Origin: Candidatus Poribacteria bacterium
GTDB taxonomy: Bacteria; Poribacteria; WGA-4E; WGA-3G
Assembly (NCBI GenBank): GCA_022827625.1
Contig: JAJEIE010000009.1
Location: forward strand, 1 to 64,000
Length of the DNA stretch: 64,000 nucleotides
Direction: 5' to 3'
Both the position numbers and the translations under genes were made by a program. This document shows, piece by piece, positions 1 through 57,630 of this stretch (positions within the stretch are counted from its first letter, which is position 1; each line of letters begins with the position of its first letter). The notes below the pieces were generated by a model. That model was given only the letters and a program-made list of their open reading frames with translations. It was not told where the DNA came from and ran no database searches.

Positions 1-1247
1 GATAATTTGCTGGCAGCATTACCAGTGTGCACTTGAATTCGAAATTTCAGGTTATGCTTACCGGACAGGTGCAGTTCTTGATACGGCATAAAAAGGGAAT
101 AATCTTCGTAGAGTGTGTTAACGTACCCGGGTCGGAAACTACCACCAACAGCAACGTTGCCTGATGTCGTGTTGTAAATTTGATTGGTATCCTTCAACGG
201 ATCTCCATTTTTCTGGTAAAAGTATGCGTTAACACTCCACTGGTTTCCCTTGAAGTTGTCTACTTCAAACTTGACATGTATCCGCATGCCTTTGACTGAA
301 TCCTGATACTGATTGTGATCCACCCATACCTTTTGAACACGAGGTTGGGCGGATAATCCATTCGGAGCGTCATTTGGATTCAGGAGGGACAGTATTGTTC
401 GTTGGGGAAATTCGCCGTAGTGCCTTGGATGCTGAATTCTGGTGCCAACTATTCGCCAGTATTGTTCAAGGAATTCCTTTACTTTTTCTTGGGCATCTGC
501 GAAAACTTCATTCCATCCTACAAACCGGCGAGTGCTATCAGGATGTGAGTTAATAGAGCGAACCAAACTGTTTGTAAACCAACCCCCATTCGTCGAATCT
601 CCCCAAGAGTACTCATTCTCAGTTGCGCTAGTCACATGCAGAAAACCGGTGTGCTCAACAAACAGTTGTCTATAGACTTTCCCCGCTTTGTAATCCACAG
701 CAGCACTCGTTCCCAAAAACCCCATTGGAATCTTAATACTACTGTCAACACCACAGGTGTCTGTTATGAGTATTTTTAAACGAGATCCCCAAGCCTCTGA
801 AGTTTTTAGTGTATCAACAAGATCCTTCCGATAGAGTTTCGCCCCCGTGAGGTCGAAATAAGTCCCACCCTCCGGAGCTTGTGGGTTTCTTGCACCATGT
901 CCACAGTAGTAGATAAAGATTACATCATTAGAGGCGGGTGTAAGTTCTCTGACCCACGTGAGAATGCGTTGCGGATTTGGCCACTCCTTGCGATTATTGG
1001 AGTTTGATCGCAAAGTTGTTAGGTTTAATTCACAGACATCTTTATTTTCTACCGCTCGTAGCAGCTGGCGAATCCATCTCGCACTTTGCTGATATTGCTT
1101 AAAGTTTGCGGGGTCGCCATCCATGATTACCAGTAACGCGTGAATCGTCGGTTTGGCAGCTGTGGCTGTCGGTGTAAAGACCACTTCCGAACTCAACAGC
1201 ACTATTATTAGCACTATAAATACAGAGAACCTTTTTATAACTTTCAT
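1..1247 (-). CDS. Exported caspase-like (C14) protease, C-terminus cut by window edge
   Basis: An open frame of about 415 codons starts at 1247 with an AGGAG ribosome site about 10 bases upstream and runs off the left edge without a stop. Residues 1-30 form a signal peptide (Lys/Arg start, hydrophobic core, ATAA exit). The caspase fold follows: strand TIHALLVIMD, then FIYYCGHG with the presumed catalytic His117, then LKILITDTCG with Cys165. The linker HYGEFP matches the YGELP element after the caspase domains of the next genes. After about residue 285 there is a further beta-rich region, missing from the neighbours, whose function I cannot name. Both dyad residues are present, so it is probably an active cysteine protease acting outside the cytoplasm. 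It is the most downstream of four same-strand paralogs (1-4853). Its substrate is unknown. Confidence 0.85.
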   Translation of the reverse strand, partial: MKVIKRFSVFIVLIIVLLSSEVVFTPTATAAKPTIHALLVIMDGDPANFKQYQQSARWIRQLLRAVENKDVCELNLTTLRSNSNNRKEWPNPQRILTWVRELTPASNDVIFIYYCGHGARNPQAPEGGTYFDLTGAKLYRKDLVDTLKTSEAWGSRLKILITDTCGVDSSIKIPMGFLGTSAAVDYKAGKVYRQLFVEHTGFLHVTSATENEYSWGDSTNGGWFTNSLVRSINSHPDSTRRFVGWNEVFADAQEKVKEFLEQYWRIVGTRIQHPRHYGEFPQRTILSLLNPNDAPNGLSAQPRVQKVWVDHNQYQDSVKGMRIHVKFEVDNFKGNQWSVNAYFYQKNGDPLKDTNQIYNTTSGNVAVGGSFRPGYVNTLYEDYSLFMPYQELHLSGKHNLKFRIQVHTGNAASKL

Positions 1248-1359
1248 ACCTCAAGTCTCCTTTTGATATTCTCTTCGATTCTGACTTATAACTTCACAAA
1301 CCGTGTCAAAATACCTTACTATATTCTCTATGTCAACAATGAGATGAGTCTCCGGGATC

Positions 1360-2952
1360 TCATTGAGTTTTCTGGGGAAGTTCGCGAGCCTGAGGTGTCT
1401 GGCTTTTCTGAGCAGTCTCCAGATCTTCAAGGAGCTTTTCTCGCTCCTCGTCAGAGAAGGCCACTGGATAATTCTCTACGTCCTTAAATCCGGCATGCTT
1501 GAATAACTCTTCTTTTAACTTATTGCCGGTTTTCTCCACAAGCTCATCCCATTCTAAGAAGGTCCGGCGTTCACCGTTATCAGGCACCTGCGATGGGAAA
1601 TCCTCGCGCCTACGGATTTCATAAATCGACTCAATCAAAGCACGTGTGAACCATCCACCATCAGAACCATCTCCGAATGACAGTTCATTTTCGGATTTAC
1701 TCACGAGATACAGAAAACCTTCGTGTTCAAGAAAGAGGTTATAGAATGATGTCTGCGGGTAGGGAAGTCCGAACCGTGGAATTTGAACGACTGGGCCAAG
1801 ACGATACGTGTCAATGATAAGCATTCGCAAACGACTTTTCTTCGCATTCTCGCCCTCTATTACCTTTTCAAGTTGCTTGATGAGGTCGCCTTGATCTTCA
1901 GCATTGGGTTCGGTCTCATTTGCACTATAATAGATGCAAATCGTGTCATTATTATCGGGCTGAAGTGCCTCTGCCCACGCTGTAATATTATCCCGCGTGA
2001 GACTGTTTTCGGAGCTGCGCAACGTCTGTATATGGAGGTTGCAGATTCCAAGAGTTTCTGCTTCCCTAAAAAGTCCACGAATCCGGGTGTGATTTATTGT
2101 TGCGATAGATCGATTGCCAGCATCAGCAATATCATTAATCACTAATAGTGCGTGCACTGTCAAAGTGAGCGTTGGGAAGTCGCCGAGGACGGTTGGGGTT
2201 TGACTTTTCTTAATATTGGCAATATTCATAGATGCTCTCAATTCATCAGAAAAGACATCCGAATTTTTACTGTACGACTCTTGGGTGACGGCTTGGGTTG
2301 TTTTCAAAATGTCCTTCCATGTGACAGGATTATCCCCATTGGTAGGTGCCGCGTAGATTGCGTGTATCAACGCTTGTGTAAACCACCCGCCGTTTGCATC
2401 CCCAAAAGCGAATTCAGATTCAGATTTACTGGTAAGATTCAGAAATCCTTTATGTTCAACGAACAAACTTTCAAGGACTGACTCAGACGGATCCGTATTG
2501 ATGAATCCACTTCCGTTCTCAGTTATTTCGATAATATGAAAATCTGTGTCCGTGATGAAGATTTTTAAGCGACCCGTCATTTTATCAAGTTTACTAACAA
2601 CTTCCTCTTGATTGAGAAAGTCGTCAACTGCACTATAATAAACGAAAACGACATCGTTGCCCCCAGGGCGAACGTTCTCCAGCCAGTCTTTTGTCTGTTC
2701 GGAAGCCGGTGTACTATTGTCCATAACAGAGCCAACACGGACCTCCTCAAGGGTGCAGATGTCCTGAGTAGCGACCGTTCGTAATAATTTGACAACCCGA
2801 TCCATATTCTTGGCATACTCTGGAATGTTCGTATCGCTACCTATCAGCAAGGCGTGGATCGTTTGTGCTGCGGTAGGAAGGGTAAACACCATTGTGGAAC
2901 TTAATAGCAACGTTATCAACGGAAAAAGATGGAACTGTCTAAATGCTCTCAT
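1360..2952 (-). CDS. Exported double caspase-fold protein, both catalytic dyads lost
   Basis: 530 residues starting at an ATG with an AAAGGAG site. A signal peptide (1-30, ending TAAQ) is followed by two caspase-like repeats at about 31-260 and 261-500, each opening with a VHALL/IHALL strand and keeping the EHxGFLxLxSKSExE and DGGWFT / NGGWFT blocks of the active neighbours. Where the paralogs have SGHG, repeat 1 has SAVD (His to Val109) and repeat 2 has SANE (His to Asn345). Where they have TDSC/TDTC, repeat 1 has TDTD (Cys to Asp137) and repeat 2 has IDTY (Cys to Tyr383). All four catalytic positions are therefore replaced while the scaffold and reading frame are intact, which suggests a pseudoenzyme (scaffold, inhibitor or binding partner) rather than a decaying gene. 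Repeat 1 ends in KSQTPTVLGDFP, the linker shared by the family. Confidence 0.85.
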   Translation of the reverse strand: MRAFRQFHLFPLITLLLSSTMVFTLPTAAQTIHALLIGSDTNIPEYAKNMDRVVKLLRTVATQDICTLEEVRVGSVMDNSTPASEQTKDWLENVRPGGNDVVFVYYSAVDDFLNQEEVVSKLDKMTGRLKIFITDTDFHIIEITENGSGFINTDPSESVLESLFVEHKGFLNLTSKSESEFAFGDANGGWFTQALIHAIYAAPTNGDNPVTWKDILKTTQAVTQESYSKNSDVFSDELRASMNIANIKKSQTPTVLGDFPTLTLTVHALLVINDIADAGNRSIATINHTRIRGLFREAETLGICNLHIQTLRSSENSLTRDNITAWAEALQPDNNDTICIYYSANETEPNAEDQGDLIKQLEKVIEGENAKKSRLRMLIIDTYRLGPVVQIPRFGLPYPQTSFYNLFLEHEGFLYLVSKSENELSFGDGSDGGWFTRALIESIYEIRRREDFPSQVPDNGERRTFLEWDELVEKTGNKLKEELFKHAGFKDVENYPVAFSDEEREKLLEDLETAQKSQTPQARELPQKTQ

Positions 2953-3047
2953 GAGATGAAATCTCCTTTGTGTGTTTGTATGTACAGCAATTACGCGCTG
3001 CTGTAAAGACGCAATTACTTGGATCCTTGTGTCTCGGCAGAGATATA

Positions 3048-3899
3048 TTACCTAAGTCGCTTTGGGAGTTCACCGTAGTACTTCGGTGTCTGGCTCGTAA
3101 TGCCCCTTTGTCGCAGATCCGCTTTCCTTTCGGGGGAAAGACGTGGATAGAGGGCATCAAATAACCCCATTGTCTTTCTTTGGGTTGCGTGAAAAATTTC
3201 CTGCCAAGACACAAAATTATCGTTATTGTCATCTGGATACGCGTAGATCGTCTGAATCAACGACGTGGTGAAATAGCCTCCACCACCGTAGGTGCGCTGA
3301 GGCCTCGGAACCACTACCCATGCATATTCGCCTTCGGTTGCGGCTGACAGATGCAAGAACCCCTTATGTTCAACAAACAAATTCTTTAATGCCGATTCAA
3401 GTGTTGGACTCAGCGACGGCGGATCTATTTCAACGGTGTTACTACAAGAATCTGTAATAAGAATTTTTAAGCGACAAGCTTGTGCCTCCATCATCCTGAC
3501 TAGTTCATCTCGATAAAGAATACCACCCTGCAGGGCGATGAAAGTTCTGTTATTTCGCATTCCACCGTGCCCCGCAAAATAAACGAAAAACACATCCTTG
3601 CTGCTGTCCAGTCGCACATCCTTTATCCAACGCTCCACCCGGTTCGGAGTCGCCCTATCTTCTGTGCTTTTCAAAACACGTTTCTCAACGCGGCAGACAT
3701 CCCTACGCTCAATATCTCGTAGTAAATTCTCAATCTGTCTCATACTTCCGGCAACACCGGGACCGATACTTGCATCGCTATCCATAATTACCAACAGTGC
3801 ATGAATGGTTTGTGCATCTGCAGCAGGGATTAACGCCAGAGTCAGTATTAACAGAAATATCCATACTTTCAATTCTCGCTGCCATCGAACAACTCTCAT
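3048..3899 (-). CDS. Exported caspase-like (C14) protease
   Basis: 283 residues; ATG start with an AAGGAGA site. Signal peptide 1-30 (WIFLLILTLALIPAADAQ). One caspase domain: TIHALLVIMDSD strand, then VFFVYFAGHGG with His111, then LKILITDSC with Cys152, followed by EHKGFLHLSAATEGEYA and FTTSLIQTIYA, the conserved core after the catalytic Cys. It ends with QTPKYYGELPKRLR, an element shared across the cluster. Compact single-domain architecture with an intact dyad, so probably an active secreted or periplasmic cysteine protease. It lies between the pseudo-caspase and another active paralog, all on one strand with gaps of about 100 bases. Whether it cuts after Arg/Lys (metacaspase-like) or Asp cannot be read from the sequence. 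Confidence 0.85.
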   Translation of the reverse strand: MRVVRWQRELKVWIFLLILTLALIPAADAQTIHALLVIMDSDASIGPGVAGSMRQIENLLRDIERRDVCRVEKRVLKSTEDRATPNRVERWIKDVRLDSSKDVFFVYFAGHGGMRNNRTFIALQGGILYRDELVRMMEAQACRLKILITDSCSNTVEIDPPSLSPTLESALKNLFVEHKGFLHLSAATEGEYAWVVVPRPQRTYGGGGYFTTSLIQTIYAYPDDNNDNFVSWQEIFHATQRKTMGLFDALYPRLSPERKADLRQRGITSQTPKYYGELPKRLR

Positions 3900-4004
3900 G
3901 ATATGACTTCTCCTTTTTGTGCCTGCTACATTAAGGTAGAGGCATTTGAAACTACCTATCTTTTGCCGCCATCTGGGAGGTCTAAAATATCAACCCTCAT
4001 CTGC

Positions 4005-4853
4005 CTATCGGTAGAATCGATCGGGTAATTCACCAAAGTACTTTGGACGCTGGCTTTTTTGCCCCACTTCATCTAACGTTTCTTTGATGCTTTGAGGAAA
4101 TTCAGGCGAGTCTATGAAAGCCTTAAAGTACGCACGTGTTTTCTTCTGTGTGTTCTCAAAGACTTCCTTCCAAGACACGAAACCGTCGTCGTCTAAACCT
4201 TCTATATACAGCATTACATCAACAAACGCGCGTGTGAATATACCACCTTCTGAATTTCCGAGGGCATATTCCCCGTCAACTGCTGCTGTAACATCCAGAA
4301 AACCTTTATGTTCTAAAAATAGATTCACGTATGCCTTTTTCAGTGTATTGATGTAAGGCAGGCGGATTGGAACACCAAAGCTGCACGCATCAGTGGCTAA
4401 AATTTTTAATCGACACGGAACGCGACCTATAGCGTTGGCAAGCTCTTTCCGATTAAATTTTCTAGTAGGCAAACTTAGATAGAATTCTCTTGTACTGCTA
4501 TCTACTCCCCCATGTCCACTGAAGTAAACGAAAATGACATCATCTCTAGCGGCATTAACATTCCGGACCCACTCTAAGATATTATCCCTTGACATGTATT
4601 CAGGACTGTTCTCATTAACATTGCTCTTCAATTCAGATAATTCAACTGGAATTCTGGCTTCTCTCTCAATATCTCTGAACACCCTTTCCATCTTATCTTT
4701 ACTGGCATTATGTTGTGGGGCATTTAAGGGGTTAGCGTCATCAATAATCAACAAGGCATAAATTGTCTGTGCGTCTGCGGTAGACGTGAACACCATCGCA
4801 GTCCCCAGCACCATTAGCACCAAAAATAGGGACAGTTCTCTCATAACTCTCAT
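4005..4853 (-). CDS. Exported caspase-like (C14) protease, first gene of the cluster
   Basis: 282 residues from the ATG at 4853, chosen over an upstream in-frame ATG at 4937 because an AGGAG site sits about 9 bases before it and the protein then begins with a normal signal peptide (MRVMRELSLFLVLMVLG, exit TADAQ). The caspase domain shows TIYALLIIDD, then VIFVYFSGHGG with His114, then LKILATDAC with Cys157, then EHKGFLDVTAAVDGEYA and a final QRPKYFGELPDR. The dyad is intact. It is the first gene transcribed in the minus-strand caspase series, so any shared promoter should lie in 4854-5300. It is closest in layout to the 3048-3899 gene. Confidence 0.85.
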   Translation of the reverse strand: MRVMRELSLFLVLMVLGTAMVFTSTADAQTIYALLIIDDANPLNAPQHNASKDKMERVFRDIEREARIPVELSELKSNVNENSPEYMSRDNILEWVRNVNAARDDVIFVYFSGHGGVDSSTREFYLSLPTRKFNRKELANAIGRVPCRLKILATDACSFGVPIRLPYINTLKKAYVNLFLEHKGFLDVTAAVDGEYALGNSEGGIFTRAFVDVMLYIEGLDDDGFVSWKEVFENTQKKTRAYFKAFIDSPEFPQSIKETLDEVGQKSQRPKYFGELPDRFYR

Positions 4854-52931: not shown

Positions 52932-55900
52932 CTACAAGGCAGGCAATCCCTCAACAATCTCCATCGTTTTCAGACTTACATTGACAACCCGTCCAATCAG
53001 ATCCACAATATACCGCGGCTCACCCGGATGATTCGGATCGTTCACAATCCCACTCCGTTTATCAGTCTTCACGCGATACTGATCCACCACCCACTCCAAC
53101 GCCGACCGGTTGCCCAACCGATAGTCAAACGCTTTCGCAGAGATACCGTCCAGTGTCAGAAAGTCGTTATATTTCAGCTGCGTCTTGTCTTTGGACAATT
53201 TCATCCGTTCAACGCGCCAATCTACCGGCACCCCTTCTGCTTCAATATATTTCAGACCTTCGTATTTCGGACAAGATTCGTAGTTAACATGGAGGTCTGC
53301 TAACTCTGCACCCGCTTTAGCAAATTCCCAGAAATCTTCGGTAAAGGGGATATGCGGCAAATCCCGTTTGAGGTTCATCTCGTATTTCTCACGATAAACG
53401 GGGTGGTGTAAGAGGGCATAGTTATAATGGAAGATGTCCCATTTAGAGATAGTATCATCGCCATAGTGAGTTCGGAATTCTCCCAAAGCCCAATCCGTGA
53501 TGTTCTCCTGCCGGTTCGTCCCATCTTCGTCGTAGGCGTAGAAGGGAAAGCATTGAAAACTATCACTTGACGCGAGTGTGTGAAGGTCAGGAATCAGATT
53601 CGTCATCAAGGCACTGAAACTTGCGCGGAAGCCGTGATCACTGACGATTATCACCCGATTTTCTGTTTCCGTCTCAGCCGTTGGAAAGAAGGATGGAAAC
53701 AGATAGACACAATTGTTCAGAACCCGGTCAAAAAATAGATTTGATTTTGTGAACGGTCGGTAAAGCGAATTTCTCACCTTGTTTTCCGTCCATTCAGCAT
53801 ATCTACCGCGTTGCAAGTGCTGACGTAATTCCCGATCCCATTTGATTTTTTTATTCTCGTAAACCACGAAATCATTAACATTTACTCGCTGATTCTCTCG
53901 CCGCTGCCACCTGTCCACCTCCGCGTTGTAAGTCCGAATCATTCCGCGAATATTCTCGTTAAGCGTATCTCGATTGGAGTTATAAACCCAAGCATCCCGG
54001 TTCGTCACCACACCTCTACAATAAGCCTTAAAAATCACATTCGCCGCAGCACCTTTCTGTGCCTTCGCTTTTTTAGTCCCCATCGGAATAAACGTATCAA
54101 ACTCAGGATGGAGACCTTCGGTTAACCAGATGTGCTGCTTGTTCGGTTGAATTGGGTTCCATTTCATGTTTCCGATGTGCTGATGTTCGTATAGAAAATT
54201 AAACTTCCTTTCTTTGTTCCATAAATCATCGGTGCGATAATAAAAGATGTTGGGTTTTTCTAATGATTTTCCCTTATTTTTCACAAACAAATTGATACTC
54301 ACCCCGACTCGGATGCCGAACACGTTCGCATTGGAGACCTTCAATCCTTTCCGCGCATTCCCACCCAGATCCAAAACGTAAATCGCGTCAAAATCCGCTG
54401 CCAGATGTTTCCGCATCCCATCAAAGGCCAAACCGTCAAGAAACCCATTGTTTGTAATAAAAGCAACAACCCCTTCCTCACCAATTCGATCAGATGCCCA
54501 TCGAATCGCTTTGACATACGGATCGTAGAGCGCATTTTTGAGGGTCGCCTTGGAATCTGCAGCGTATGTGTCCACAATCCGCGCGTCCATTGTCGGATAT
54601 TTTCGATTCCTATTATTGTCGCTATCGTTGACCTGCCACGCGTTGTAAGGCGGATTGCCAATAACAACAAACATATCCGCCGCCTTCTGCTGCTTCACCC
54701 GTTCCGTATTTTCCTGCGTAAAGAGTTCGCCTTGCTGCTGCTCCAGCAGTTCAAACGTATCCGCAAGCGCGATGCCTTCAAACGGTAGATACGTCCCTGT
54801 CCGTTGATAAAATTCTTGTTCTATGTTCAGACTGGCGATGTAGTACGGCAGGAGCATCACTTCATTGCAGTAGAGCTCGTGACGGTATTTCTCTTCCAAA
54901 GCCGTACCTTGGATGTCTTGCATGAGTCGGACGATAAAGTTTCCCGTCCCGACGAATGGATCAATGATATGCACACCGTTGTCAGACAAGGCCCGGTCAA
55001 ACTCAGTTTCAAGGATATGCTCCACACTTTTCACCATGAAATCAACAATCGGTTGTGGTGTGTAGACGATACCGTGCGTGTCTGCCACATCCTCAGAAAA
55101 CCCCTGAAAAAACTTCTCATAAAACGTGTTGAGGAAGTGCTGTTTTTGGGAGAAATCTCGACAGAGGGTCGCTGCCTGTTCAATAGCAACATAGAACCGG
55201 TCCAGCGGCTCAAGAAACACGTCACGACTCATCGCATGACGCATGAGCGCAGCACTGACTTTTTCAATTTCGATAGCGATGATATTCCGACCTGTGAAAT
55301 CTGACCGGTTGAAAACAGTACGGAAGATACGCTCGGTGAGGATATGTTGAATAAGCATCTCCTCAACTGCAGCCTGTGAGAGTTCTGGGTTAATGGATGT
55401 ACGACATGTCTCGTAAAAATTCGCAAACGCCTTTTTGAACGCTGGATCCGTTTCGTGTCGTTGCTCAATAAGTTCTTTCAGTTTGTTTGCGAGATCTGGC
55501 ACATGCTCCCTAAAATCCGAGACAGCCGTCTGCCAATTGTCAAGTGCAGGTGGGACATAAGAGAACAGATATTGGAGGACTGCAATCAGGCACGCCGGTT
55601 CAGTGATGTCCAGATCCAGTGCTATCTGTCCATTCTGATACAGAACAGCGCGCTGCGGGTTTTGGAAGAGGATATTGTCGAGCGGATAGCCTGCCTCGCG
55701 TTTATCTTCAACGGCTTTGAGAAGGTTGTCGTCTGTATCTTTCGCCTCCCAGTAGGCGAAGGGGAGTCCGTATTCGTCGAGTACCACCCCGTCAATGACG
55801 ATCCGATTCCCTATTGGTGAGCGCATCTGATATTGTGGGACGAGCGTGGCGTTGATTTGCTTTGCACAAGCCTGTAGGAGTGTATCAAAGGGTGAACTGA

Positions 55901-56000
55901 CCGCGCCTTCGTGTCTGATGTCGTGGTGTTCGTATTGCTGCAGCGTGGCGTAGTAGTCTCGAATTGGTTTATGACTGGGTTTCAGGTTCAGCTTCGGCAT
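52932..56000 (-). CDS. Single-chain restriction nuclease-methyltransferase (type ISP / IIG-like)
   Basis: 1022 residues. Residues 60-90 hold a PD-(D/E)xK-like site: VIDGVVLDEYGLPFAYWEAKD, with Asp70 and Glu85-x-Lys87. The N6-adenine methyltransferase core follows: a helical part at about 150-300, motif I IIDPFVGTGNFIVRLMQD at about 347, and motif IV GNPPYNAWQV at about 448. The last 400 residues (from about LWNKERKFNFLYEHQHIGN) resemble the type ISP specificity domain, with FYAYDEDGTNRQENITDWALGEFR. No helicase domain, so it is IIG-like rather than full ISP. It should cut and methylate DNA in one polypeptide. The upstream neighbours are an ApeA-like gene and a toxin-antitoxin pair on the same strand. 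Confidence 0.85.
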   Translation of the reverse strand: MPKLNLKPSHKPIRDYYATLQQYEHHDIRHEGAVSSPFDTLLQACAKQINATLVPQYQMRSPIGNRIVIDGVVLDEYGLPFAYWEAKDTDDNLLKAVEDKREAGYPLDNILFQNPQRAVLYQNGQIALDLDITEPACLIAVLQYLFSYVPPALDNWQTAVSDFREHVPDLANKLKELIEQRHETDPAFKKAFANFYETCRTSINPELSQAAVEEMLIQHILTERIFRTVFNRSDFTGRNIIAIEIEKVSAALMRHAMSRDVFLEPLDRFYVAIEQAATLCRDFSQKQHFLNTFYEKFFQGFSEDVADTHGIVYTPQPIVDFMVKSVEHILETEFDRALSDNGVHIIDPFVGTGNFIVRLMQDIQGTALEEKYRHELYCNEVMLLPYYIASLNIEQEFYQRTGTYLPFEGIALADTFELLEQQQGELFTQENTERVKQQKAADMFVVIGNPPYNAWQVNDSDNNRNRKYPTMDARIVDTYAADSKATLKNALYDPYVKAIRWASDRIGEEGVVAFITNNGFLDGLAFDGMRKHLAADFDAIYVLDLGGNARKGLKVSNANVFGIRVGVSINLFVKNKGKSLEKPNIFYYRTDDLWNKERKFNFLYEHQHIGNMKWNPIQPNKQHIWLTEGLHPEFDTFIPMGTKKAKAQKGAAANVIFKAYCRGVVTNRDAWVYNSNRDTLNENIRGMIRTYNAEVDRWQRRENQRVNVNDFVVYENKKIKWDRELRQHLQRGRYAEWTENKVRNSLYRPFTKSNLFFDRVLNNCVYLFPSFFPTAETETENRVIIVSDHGFRASFSALMTNLIPDLHTLASSDSFQCFPFYAYDEDGTNRQENITDWALGEFRTHYGDDTISKWDIFHYNYALLHHPVYREKYEMNLKRDLPHIPFTEDFWEFAKAGAELADLHVNYESCPKYEGLKYIEAEGVPVDWRVERMKLSKDKTQLKYNDFLTLDGISAKAFDYRLGNRSALEWVVDQYRVKTDKRSGIVNDPNHPGEPRYIVDLIGRVVNVSLKTMEIVEGLPAL

Positions 56001-56250
56001 AAGTGCATAATAGCACGTTTGGGGTTAGCAGACAAGGAAAAATTGGATTGCAGATAGGGGCATTCAATCTTCTTGTAGGAGGGATTTCCAAATCCCGACA
56101 CTTCTGTATCAAGTTTGTAGTAGTGCGATTCATCGCACGTCAAGTACGCAATGTGTAGAACAATATGTTTCTTTCACTCTTCAGCCCCCGGGGAATGCCC
56201 TACAGCATTCATACCGTTGATTTCGGGGCAATATGTGGGAATTCTGTTCC
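56001..56250. repeat. Cluster of three intergenic repeat types
   Basis: Between the restriction enzyme and ApeA-like genes: a TTGTAGGAGGGATTTCC / AATCCCGACACTTC element (56069-56107), a TTGTAGTAGTGCGATTCATC hairpin (56115-56138) and a GGGGAATGCC...CAGCATTC hairpin (56184-56229) ending ATACCGTTGATTTCGGGG. All three have relatives elsewhere in the window (25992-26055 and 57676-57699). No gene. Confidence 0.6.
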
Positions 56251-57630
56251 TCAAAATGAGAGTGTTTGTTTGAGTTCATTGCAATTCCACACAATGGAAC
56301 GAATCTCTTCTTGACCAAAGCCTATCATTTGGAGGAAAAGGAGTTGAACAAGTGCTTCCATTTTTTGGGAAAGAACCCATAAATCATCAATATCCTCTCG
56401 CTCTAAATGATGATGGGTCAGATTATTTCGGGTATCTACAATTCTATTTACCAGTTTTTTGCGTTTCCCCTTATTTCCAAAGAGATCCTTAAATGGTTCA
56501 ATAAGCCTCGTGATCCTTTTTCTCAAACTCACCTCATTACCATATCTCAATCTACCTTCCAACCACTTCTCTCTTCCTTGAGGACATTGCTTAATAAGAT
56601 TTTCGACTAATTGTTCAAATTCGGCTTCGTCCATTTCCTTTTCGTTAGATATCCCTCGATGATATATTTCTAAACCTTGTACTAAGGACAAGAATCTCGT
56701 TTCCAAATATGGATATGCGTTCCTTTGTGCCCAAACGTATAAATGGAAAACAGCCCCAGACTGTTCACAACCTTTTATCCAATTGTTAATTATAGTCTCA
56801 GCCCTATCTTGTATCTTTTCAAACTCAAATAACATTTTATGTTCATAAATTTCGGGATCGTTTTTAGAGTGAAGTGAATTCAAAAAATAAATATCTACTG
56901 GAATTTCCGATCTTAGGTTTTCCCGAACATCTTGATGAGGAGTGTCAAAGACTGTTGACACACTGTCGAAATAAACTACTTCGTTTATGGCAAAACACAG
57001 GAAAGTTGTAAGTTTGTTAGCAATAGAGATAAACTCGTCCAGCTCACGGGCATCCTGCGAAACTAAGTGAAAATAGGTCTTTTGGGTTATTCCTATCTCT
57101 TTCCTGTTCAAGGACAAGGGAAGTTGACAATCAAACGCAATCGACAACTCCATACCATTGTCAAGTTTGAGAGGAATATTTGCCGGTAACTTGTACGATA
57201 TGGTTGCAGCGTGATTTTCAAATTGGTAGTCTTCTTCAATGCCGCTTATTCCAACCCATTCGTCAATTCCTGCTATGAAAAAAGTTAATGTATCAAAATG
57301 GGGAATTTCGCTTTCACGGTACGCTACACCTTTAAAAACTCTCATTACATCAATGTATGATCGTGATATGTCATCAAATGTTCTGGATGTGTCAACGCTG
57401 GATGACATTCTCCGGCAATGGCAATCATCAAGCGTAACAAATCCCCCTTTTTCGAGATGACCAACTATTCGCTTTATTGGTTCTGGCTCATCTAATGTCC
57501 CGAATACTCCGAAAAGTTCCAGCTTAATTACTCCTCCGTCTAATATTGAGAGTATTCCAGGTATCCGTTTGTCAGGCACGGATGGGAGCCAAAAATAGCC
57601 CGATTTCTTAAATTCTTCTTTGATTCTCAT
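56251..57630 (-). CDS. ApeA-like HEPN-domain anti-phage protein
   Basis: 459 residues; ATG preceded by TAGGAGAAC. The N-terminal half (SGYFWLPSVPDKRIPGILSILDGGVIKLELFGVFG, then FDTLTFFIAGIDEWVGISGI) is beta-rich and matches the ApeA N-terminal domain type; the C-terminal part is helical and carries the HEPN RNase motif RNNLTH (RNxxxH) at 401-406. ApeA proteins are known anti-phage abortive-infection effectors whose HEPN domain cleaves RNA. The composition is visibly AT-richer than the metabolic genes. Inverted copies of one hairpin repeat bracket the gene at 56115-56138 and 57676-57699. Sits between a restriction enzyme and a toxin-antitoxin pair, which supports a defence role. Confidence 0.8.
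   Translation of the reverse strand: MRIKEEFKKSGYFWLPSVPDKRIPGILSILDGGVIKLELFGVFGTLDEPEPIKRIVGHLEKGGFVTLDDCHCRRMSSSVDTSRTFDDISRSYIDVMRVFKGVAYRESEIPHFDTLTFFIAGIDEWVGISGIEEDYQFENHAATISYKLPANIPLKLDNGMELSIAFDCQLPLSLNRKEIGITQKTYFHLVSQDARELDEFISIANKLTTFLCFAINEVVYFDSVSTVFDTPHQDVRENLRSEIPVDIYFLNSLHSKNDPEIYEHKMLFEFEKIQDRAETIINNWIKGCEQSGAVFHLYVWAQRNAYPYLETRFLSLVQGLEIYHRGISNEKEMDEAEFEQLVENLIKQCPQGREKWLEGRLRYGNEVSLRKRITRLIEPFKDLFGNKGKRKKLVNRIVDTRNNLTHHHLEREDIDDLWVLSQKMEALVQLLFLQMIGFGQEEIRSIVWNCNELKQTLSF

Follow-up and report, generated by a model that had tools for sequence, protein, structure and literature searches.

Caspase-fold proteins that lack the catalytic His-Cys dyad are already known from bacteria as pseudo-orthocaspases. 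In 2019, 862 of them were catalogued, corresponding to 8.6% of the bacterial orthocaspases (PMC6426788). The described members are mostly of the YS, YN, YA, FS, QC, or HA type, contain a single p20 domain, and belong to Cyanobacteria and Alphaproteobacteria; a QC pseudo-clade with DUF4384 was also reported (PMC6426788). Its authors argued that pseudo-orthocaspases found beside true orthocaspases are most likely not their regulators (PMC6426788). Poribacteria, tandem or operon arrangements, and proteins with two p20 domains did not turn up when the main text of the survey was searched for these terms (PMC6426788), and our literature search revealed no paper on Poribacteria caspases of the type described below.

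We analyzed a 64,000-nucleotide stretch of Candidatus Poribacteria DNA (the window), which begins with an array of four caspase-like genes. The features are as follows.

4005..4853, minus strand: exported single-domain caspase homolog, 282 aa, His-Cys dyad present, first gene of the array (open reading frame and PF00656)
3048..3899, minus strand: exported single-domain caspase homolog, 283 aa, His-Cys dyad present (open reading frame and PF00656)
1360..2952, minus strand: exported double pseudo-caspase, 530 aa, in which a single signal peptide precedes two caspase-fold domains in tandem
2161..2868, minus strand: pseudo-caspase domain 1, residues 29 to 264 of the 530-aa protein
1363..2166, minus strand: pseudo-caspase domain 2, residues 263 to 530 of the 530-aa protein
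1..1247, minus strand: exported caspase homolog with the dyad and an extra C-terminal domain, 415 aa visible, gene cut by the contig end

The first-pass annotation had described four same-strand caspase paralogs with signal peptides, three of them retaining His and Cys. Indeed, the four open reading frames lie on the minus strand, and all four proteins exceed the Pfam caspase cutoff (PF00656), start with a Sec-type signal peptide, and continue directly with the first caspase strand T-[IV]-[HY]-A-L-L. Each gene is preceded by an AAGGAG-like ribosome site, and the intergenic gaps are 95 to 112 nt. The kinship within the array is not due to chance, since E values of 1.6e-28, 2.5e-26, and 8.8e-26 were obtained when the 530-aa protein was compared with its three neighbors by BLAST. 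G-H-G and D-x-C are present in the three single-domain proteins, which thus contain the His-Cys dyad of caspase family C14, while it is absent from both domains of the 530-aa protein. For the single-domain proteins, activity as Cys proteases in the periplasm or at the cell surface is predicted. We assign the array proteins to the caspase family (clan CD, orthocaspase type) and regard the locus as accessory and lineage specific in Candidatus Poribacteria. An EACC1 system was rejected for the array (21 to 61 bits with the EACC1-associated caspase model NF047832, for which the curated cutoff is 140), as was an anti-phage defense caspase (best PADLOC match only E 0.0025). The QTPKYxGELP motif, previously described as a linker, is instead the conserved C-terminal domain end, recognizable as Q-x-P in distant bacterial caspases.

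The catalytic places of the 530-aa protein were then compared with those of its kin. The alignment confirmed the replacements Asp137, Asn345, and Tyr383 proposed earlier: in domain 1, D137 (codon 2542-2544) stands in place of Cys, and in domain 2, N345 (codon 1918-1920) and Y383 (codon 1804-1806) replace His and Cys, respectively. A replacement of His by Val109 had also been proposed; His is absent from domain 1, but V109 (codon 2626-2628) is merely the nearest residue, since the His-bearing loop is about 13 residues shorter than that of the neighbor and the alignment gap falls at the His. Near the catalytic places, none of the five conserved columns is retained in either domain (0/5 and 0/5), and neither the GHG nor the C-S flanking motif remains. 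Because all these columns are lost, the substrate cleft of the 530-aa protein is probably not intact. The other core columns are largely kept, 27/35 in domain 1 and 29/35 in domain 2 (77 to 83%), with 30 to 35 in active members. Two residues ahead of the nucleophile place, an Asp is present in 13/13 pseudo domains and in 25/26 active domains, and the residue aligned with Asp95 of TbMCA2, the second acidic pocket residue, is variable, in active members too. A fully retained basic-residue pocket was rejected, since of the two Asp residues of such a pocket just one is conserved. As a bacterial protein with p20 caspase domains in which the dyad is replaced, the 530-aa protein is a pseudo-orthocaspase, belonging to a family that does not have both acidic pocket residues as in the cyanobacterial types.

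For structure prediction, the two halves of the 530-aa protein were modeled separately with AlphaFold, each with an alignment of kin. A caspase fold was predicted for both (pLDDT of 89.0 for domain 1 and 83.6 for domain 2), as the first-pass annotation had anticipated. The best PDB matches of both models were animal caspases, with TM-scores of about 0.4 to 0.6 indicating a distant relation; additional matches were T. brucei metacaspase 2 for domain 1 and MALT1 for domain 2. A p10-like part is probably present, because the family profile weakly matches the caspase-3 p12 subunit. In a Pfam search, the 530-aa protein contained the caspase domain alone, with no death-effector or other adaptor domain.

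Contig C33, which opens with the array, belongs to a 5.0-Mb draft genome, and no other caspase locus was found in this genome. A search with the C-terminal region of the fourth caspase led to contig C2, the first 134 bases of which are identical to the end of the window strand. There, the gene is completed (L159:1-168), giving a full product of 426 aa. Past the join follow a transposase gene (HTH_Tnp_1), unrelated genes including those for a PemK/MazF-type toxin and a TPR protein, and then a glycogen-branching-type gene; no further caspase was detected on C2 between the join and this gene. In all four relatives with long enough contigs (4/4), the branching-type gene homolog adjoins PhyH in the same relative orientation, and this common gene order supports the join of C33 and C2. 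Furthermore, tblastn with the array genes around the GlgA-PhyH genes of six relatives detected no homolog at the site. The array is thus part of an insert of approximately 12.5 kb between the PhyH and branching-enzyme genes, and the four spanning relatives do not have it. Its third-codon GC (0.41 to 0.45) is below that of most other window genes tested (0.46 to 0.63).

Three features of this setting were observed in passing. Between PhyH and the branching-type gene, three relatives (L149, L150, and L153) harbor a gene for a 158-aa protein (MQKRIYIETTIPSSYY...), of which no counterpart was noticed there in the window genome. The fourth caspase has a C-terminal domain (window 3-329, minus strand) to which the Pfam search gave no name; this domain also terminates unrelated, exported-looking proteins of two other Poribacteria (L160 and L161; 66% and 48% identity). 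A gene for a Type ISP restriction-modification enzyme lies beside one for an ApeA-like HEPN protein at 52932-57630 (minus strand), within the part of the window that has the lowest GC, and this region looks like a defense island.

The named relatives in the family are Candidatus Poribacteria genomes. The dyad is absent from 13 of the 39 caspase domains compared (16 genomes), with a different replacement in almost every pseudo domain. The closest double-dead relatives of the 530-aa protein are two adjacent double pseudo-caspases in genome G035 (N/V with D/G and D/F with H/E). When orthology with them was tested, grouping was allowed for domain 1 (P = 0.37) and disfavored for domain 2 (P = 0.025), on long branches. 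Grouping of the two window domains as an internal duplication had a support of 50/88.

The first-pass annotation had interpreted the array as an active enzyme set with an inactive regulator. This active-plus-pseudo pattern recurs in relatives: at four loci of three genomes, G035 (L045), G013 (L046 and L047), and G050 (L050), an active caspase-DUF4384 gene is followed after 71 to 103 nt by a T/C or F/C pseudo-caspase-DUF4384 gene. In the tree, the pseudo members of these pairs group in one clade (100/96) and their active partners in a second one (94/91); the branching of one subtree is mirrored in the other, which is the pattern expected from co-inheritance as a pair. Active/pseudo pairing is cleaner in this conserved unit of an active and a His-lost DUF4384 protein than in the window array. 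The pattern does not hold throughout, since the G035 double-dead proteins are encoded approximately 360 kb away from the active caspases of that genome. A pseudo-caspase is present in 4/4 multi-copy genomes and in 1/14 single-copy genomes (P = 0.0016; drafts can miss copies). This excess fits partnership but also plain redundancy.

Weak matches to M15/VanY-type D-Ala-D-Ala peptidases, below the curated cutoffs, adjoin or are fused with caspases of the array family (L050:627-1805, L047:2361-4589, and, by eye, L045:13387-15381), hinting at a cell wall setting. Single-copy active relatives (L093 to L098, in G058, G049, G052, G025, G011, and G005) end, as judged by eye, in several hydrophobic segments and look membrane anchored.

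We tentatively favor, as possible rather than probable, the explanation that the 530-aa protein of this lineage-specific exported array is a noncatalytic partner that binds the active paralogs or a common ligand or substrate. Its location, the common compartment, the retained fold, the constraint on domain 2 (see below), and the recurring active/pseudo pairs in relatives, in which the pseudo member does not exceed the active one in omega, all argue for it. The array genes would be cotranscribed, and the 530-aa product, which would have lost catalysis and kept the fold in its two caspase domains, would be exported to the same compartment as the three active paralogs. There, its caspase folds may bind these paralogs, or a ligand or substrate common to both, and the binding could tune their activity or placement, by either inhibition or activation. 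This explanation is weakest with regard to domain 1, the erasure of the active-site loops, and the distant double-dead locus of G035.

Alternatively, the 530-aa protein could be a free-standing exported binding or scaffold protein, in which the fold was recruited for ligands and the neighboring proteases are not regulated. We regard this as unlikely, while giving it serious weight. It would account for the position of the two constrained G035 proteins apart from active caspases and for the full remodeling of the active-site loops in the window protein, and it agrees with the argument in the 2019 survey that prokaryotic pseudo-orthocaspases are mostly non-regulators of true ones (PMC6426788). 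However, the window gene lies inside an array of active paralogs destined for the same compartment, and an active/pseudo pair is co-inherited in relatives, both of which speak against it.

The 530-aa gene could also be a fading duplicate that, after the loss of catalysis, is now functionless or useful in one half only. Since pairwise dN/dS of the protein was saturated, selection was analyzed with a branch codon model, which has no rate variation among sites and was applied to long branches with synonymous change near saturation, so that the omega values are rough. For the two window domains jointly, omega was 0.36 versus 0.18 in the background; neutrality was rejected (2dlnL = 14.3), and relaxation relative to the background was supported (P = 0.0096). 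Analyzed alone, domain 2 had an omega of 0.25 with neutrality rejected (P = 1e-4), and domain 1 had an omega of 0.60, indistinguishable from 1 (P = 0.3). The purifying selection that would support function of the pseudo-caspase was thus detected for domain 2 but not for domain 1. In line with a fading duplicate are the values for domain 1 and for both domains jointly, the location in an accessory insert with a transposase gene, and the failure to find a close ortholog in the genome_contigs set or in 85 Poribacteria genomes, where the best relative had 36% identity. However, the frame of 530 codons, the signal peptide, and the ribosome site are all intact, domain 2 is constrained, and most core columns have been retained over very long branches. 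Moreover, related pseudo-caspases are clearly constrained: omega was 0.32 and 0.24 for the domains of the two G035 double pseudo-caspases (P below 1e-10), 0.31 (0.20 to 0.48) for the pseudo member of the G035/G013 pair copies, for which the active member had 0.46 (0.31 to 0.69), and 0.36 for a Cys-lost caspase common to G035 and G012. We regard decay of the gene as rather unlikely, though it is a serious rival.

Poribacteria are known mainly as sponge symbionts. The array could be aimed outward, with exported caspases and an inactive decoy targeting sponge host proteins or those of neighboring microbes, as the export signals on every array member and the Poribacteria affiliation of the relatives would allow. 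We consider this improbable: it would need passage beyond the outer membrane; relatives with hydrophobic C-terminal segments look, by eye, membrane anchored; and no host target is known. It is hardly credible that the 530-aa protein works as an enzyme through an unusual set of catalytic residues, despite its retained fold and the Asp two positions ahead of the nucleophile place, since the residues at its dyad places (Asp, Tyr, Val, and Asn) correspond to no nucleophile/base pair known in clan CD and the variation of the replacements among pseudo domains has the appearance of loss.

Returning to the noncatalytic partner, dead caspases may be working parts of such Poribacteria systems. A broader proposal, which we consider doubtful, is that inactive caspase-fold proteins would be conserved regulators of active ones within an exported caspase network of Poribacteria, and that the two-domain dead form would provide a ready-made pseudo-dimer. 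If true, this would be a bacterial, extracytoplasmic counterpart of the eukaryotic pseudo-caspase/caspase arrangement. In Poribacteria, the question of regulation becomes testable with few proteins, as four conserved active-plus-pseudo pairs are available along with three double-dead proteins, each of them bearing export signals.

In eukaryotes, cFLIP, a cytosolic dimer partner, consists of death-effector domains and one caspase-like domain. The window protein differs from it in having two caspase domains and no adaptor domain and in being exported. Like the array, cFLIP/caspase-8 and MCA4/MCA3 of Trypanosoma brucei combine an inactive caspase homolog with active ones made alongside it, as discussed in the survey (PMC6426788). 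A FLIP-like regulatory role is plausible by analogy and is weakest for the window protein, in which the catalytic motifs are all erased. With caspase-DUF4384 proteins the array is linked through the family members in G035, G013, and G050, which carry DUF4384, unlike the window proteins. Most similar are the pseudo-orthocaspases (PMC6426788), such as SyOC of Synechocystis (PMC7889975), which share with the 530-aa protein a bacterial caspase fold without the His-Cys dyad, often alongside active paralogs. Compared with those described there, the window protein stands apart in that a single exported chain carries two dead domains, with V(gap)/D and N/Y at the dyad places, and in that it is surrounded by an array of active paralogs in a Poribacteria genome. 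The first-pass annotation had considered such a cluster unusual; bacterial pseudo-caspases as such are not unusual, as the 862 catalogued cases attest (PMC6426788), but their exported, double-dead, array-linked form is new.
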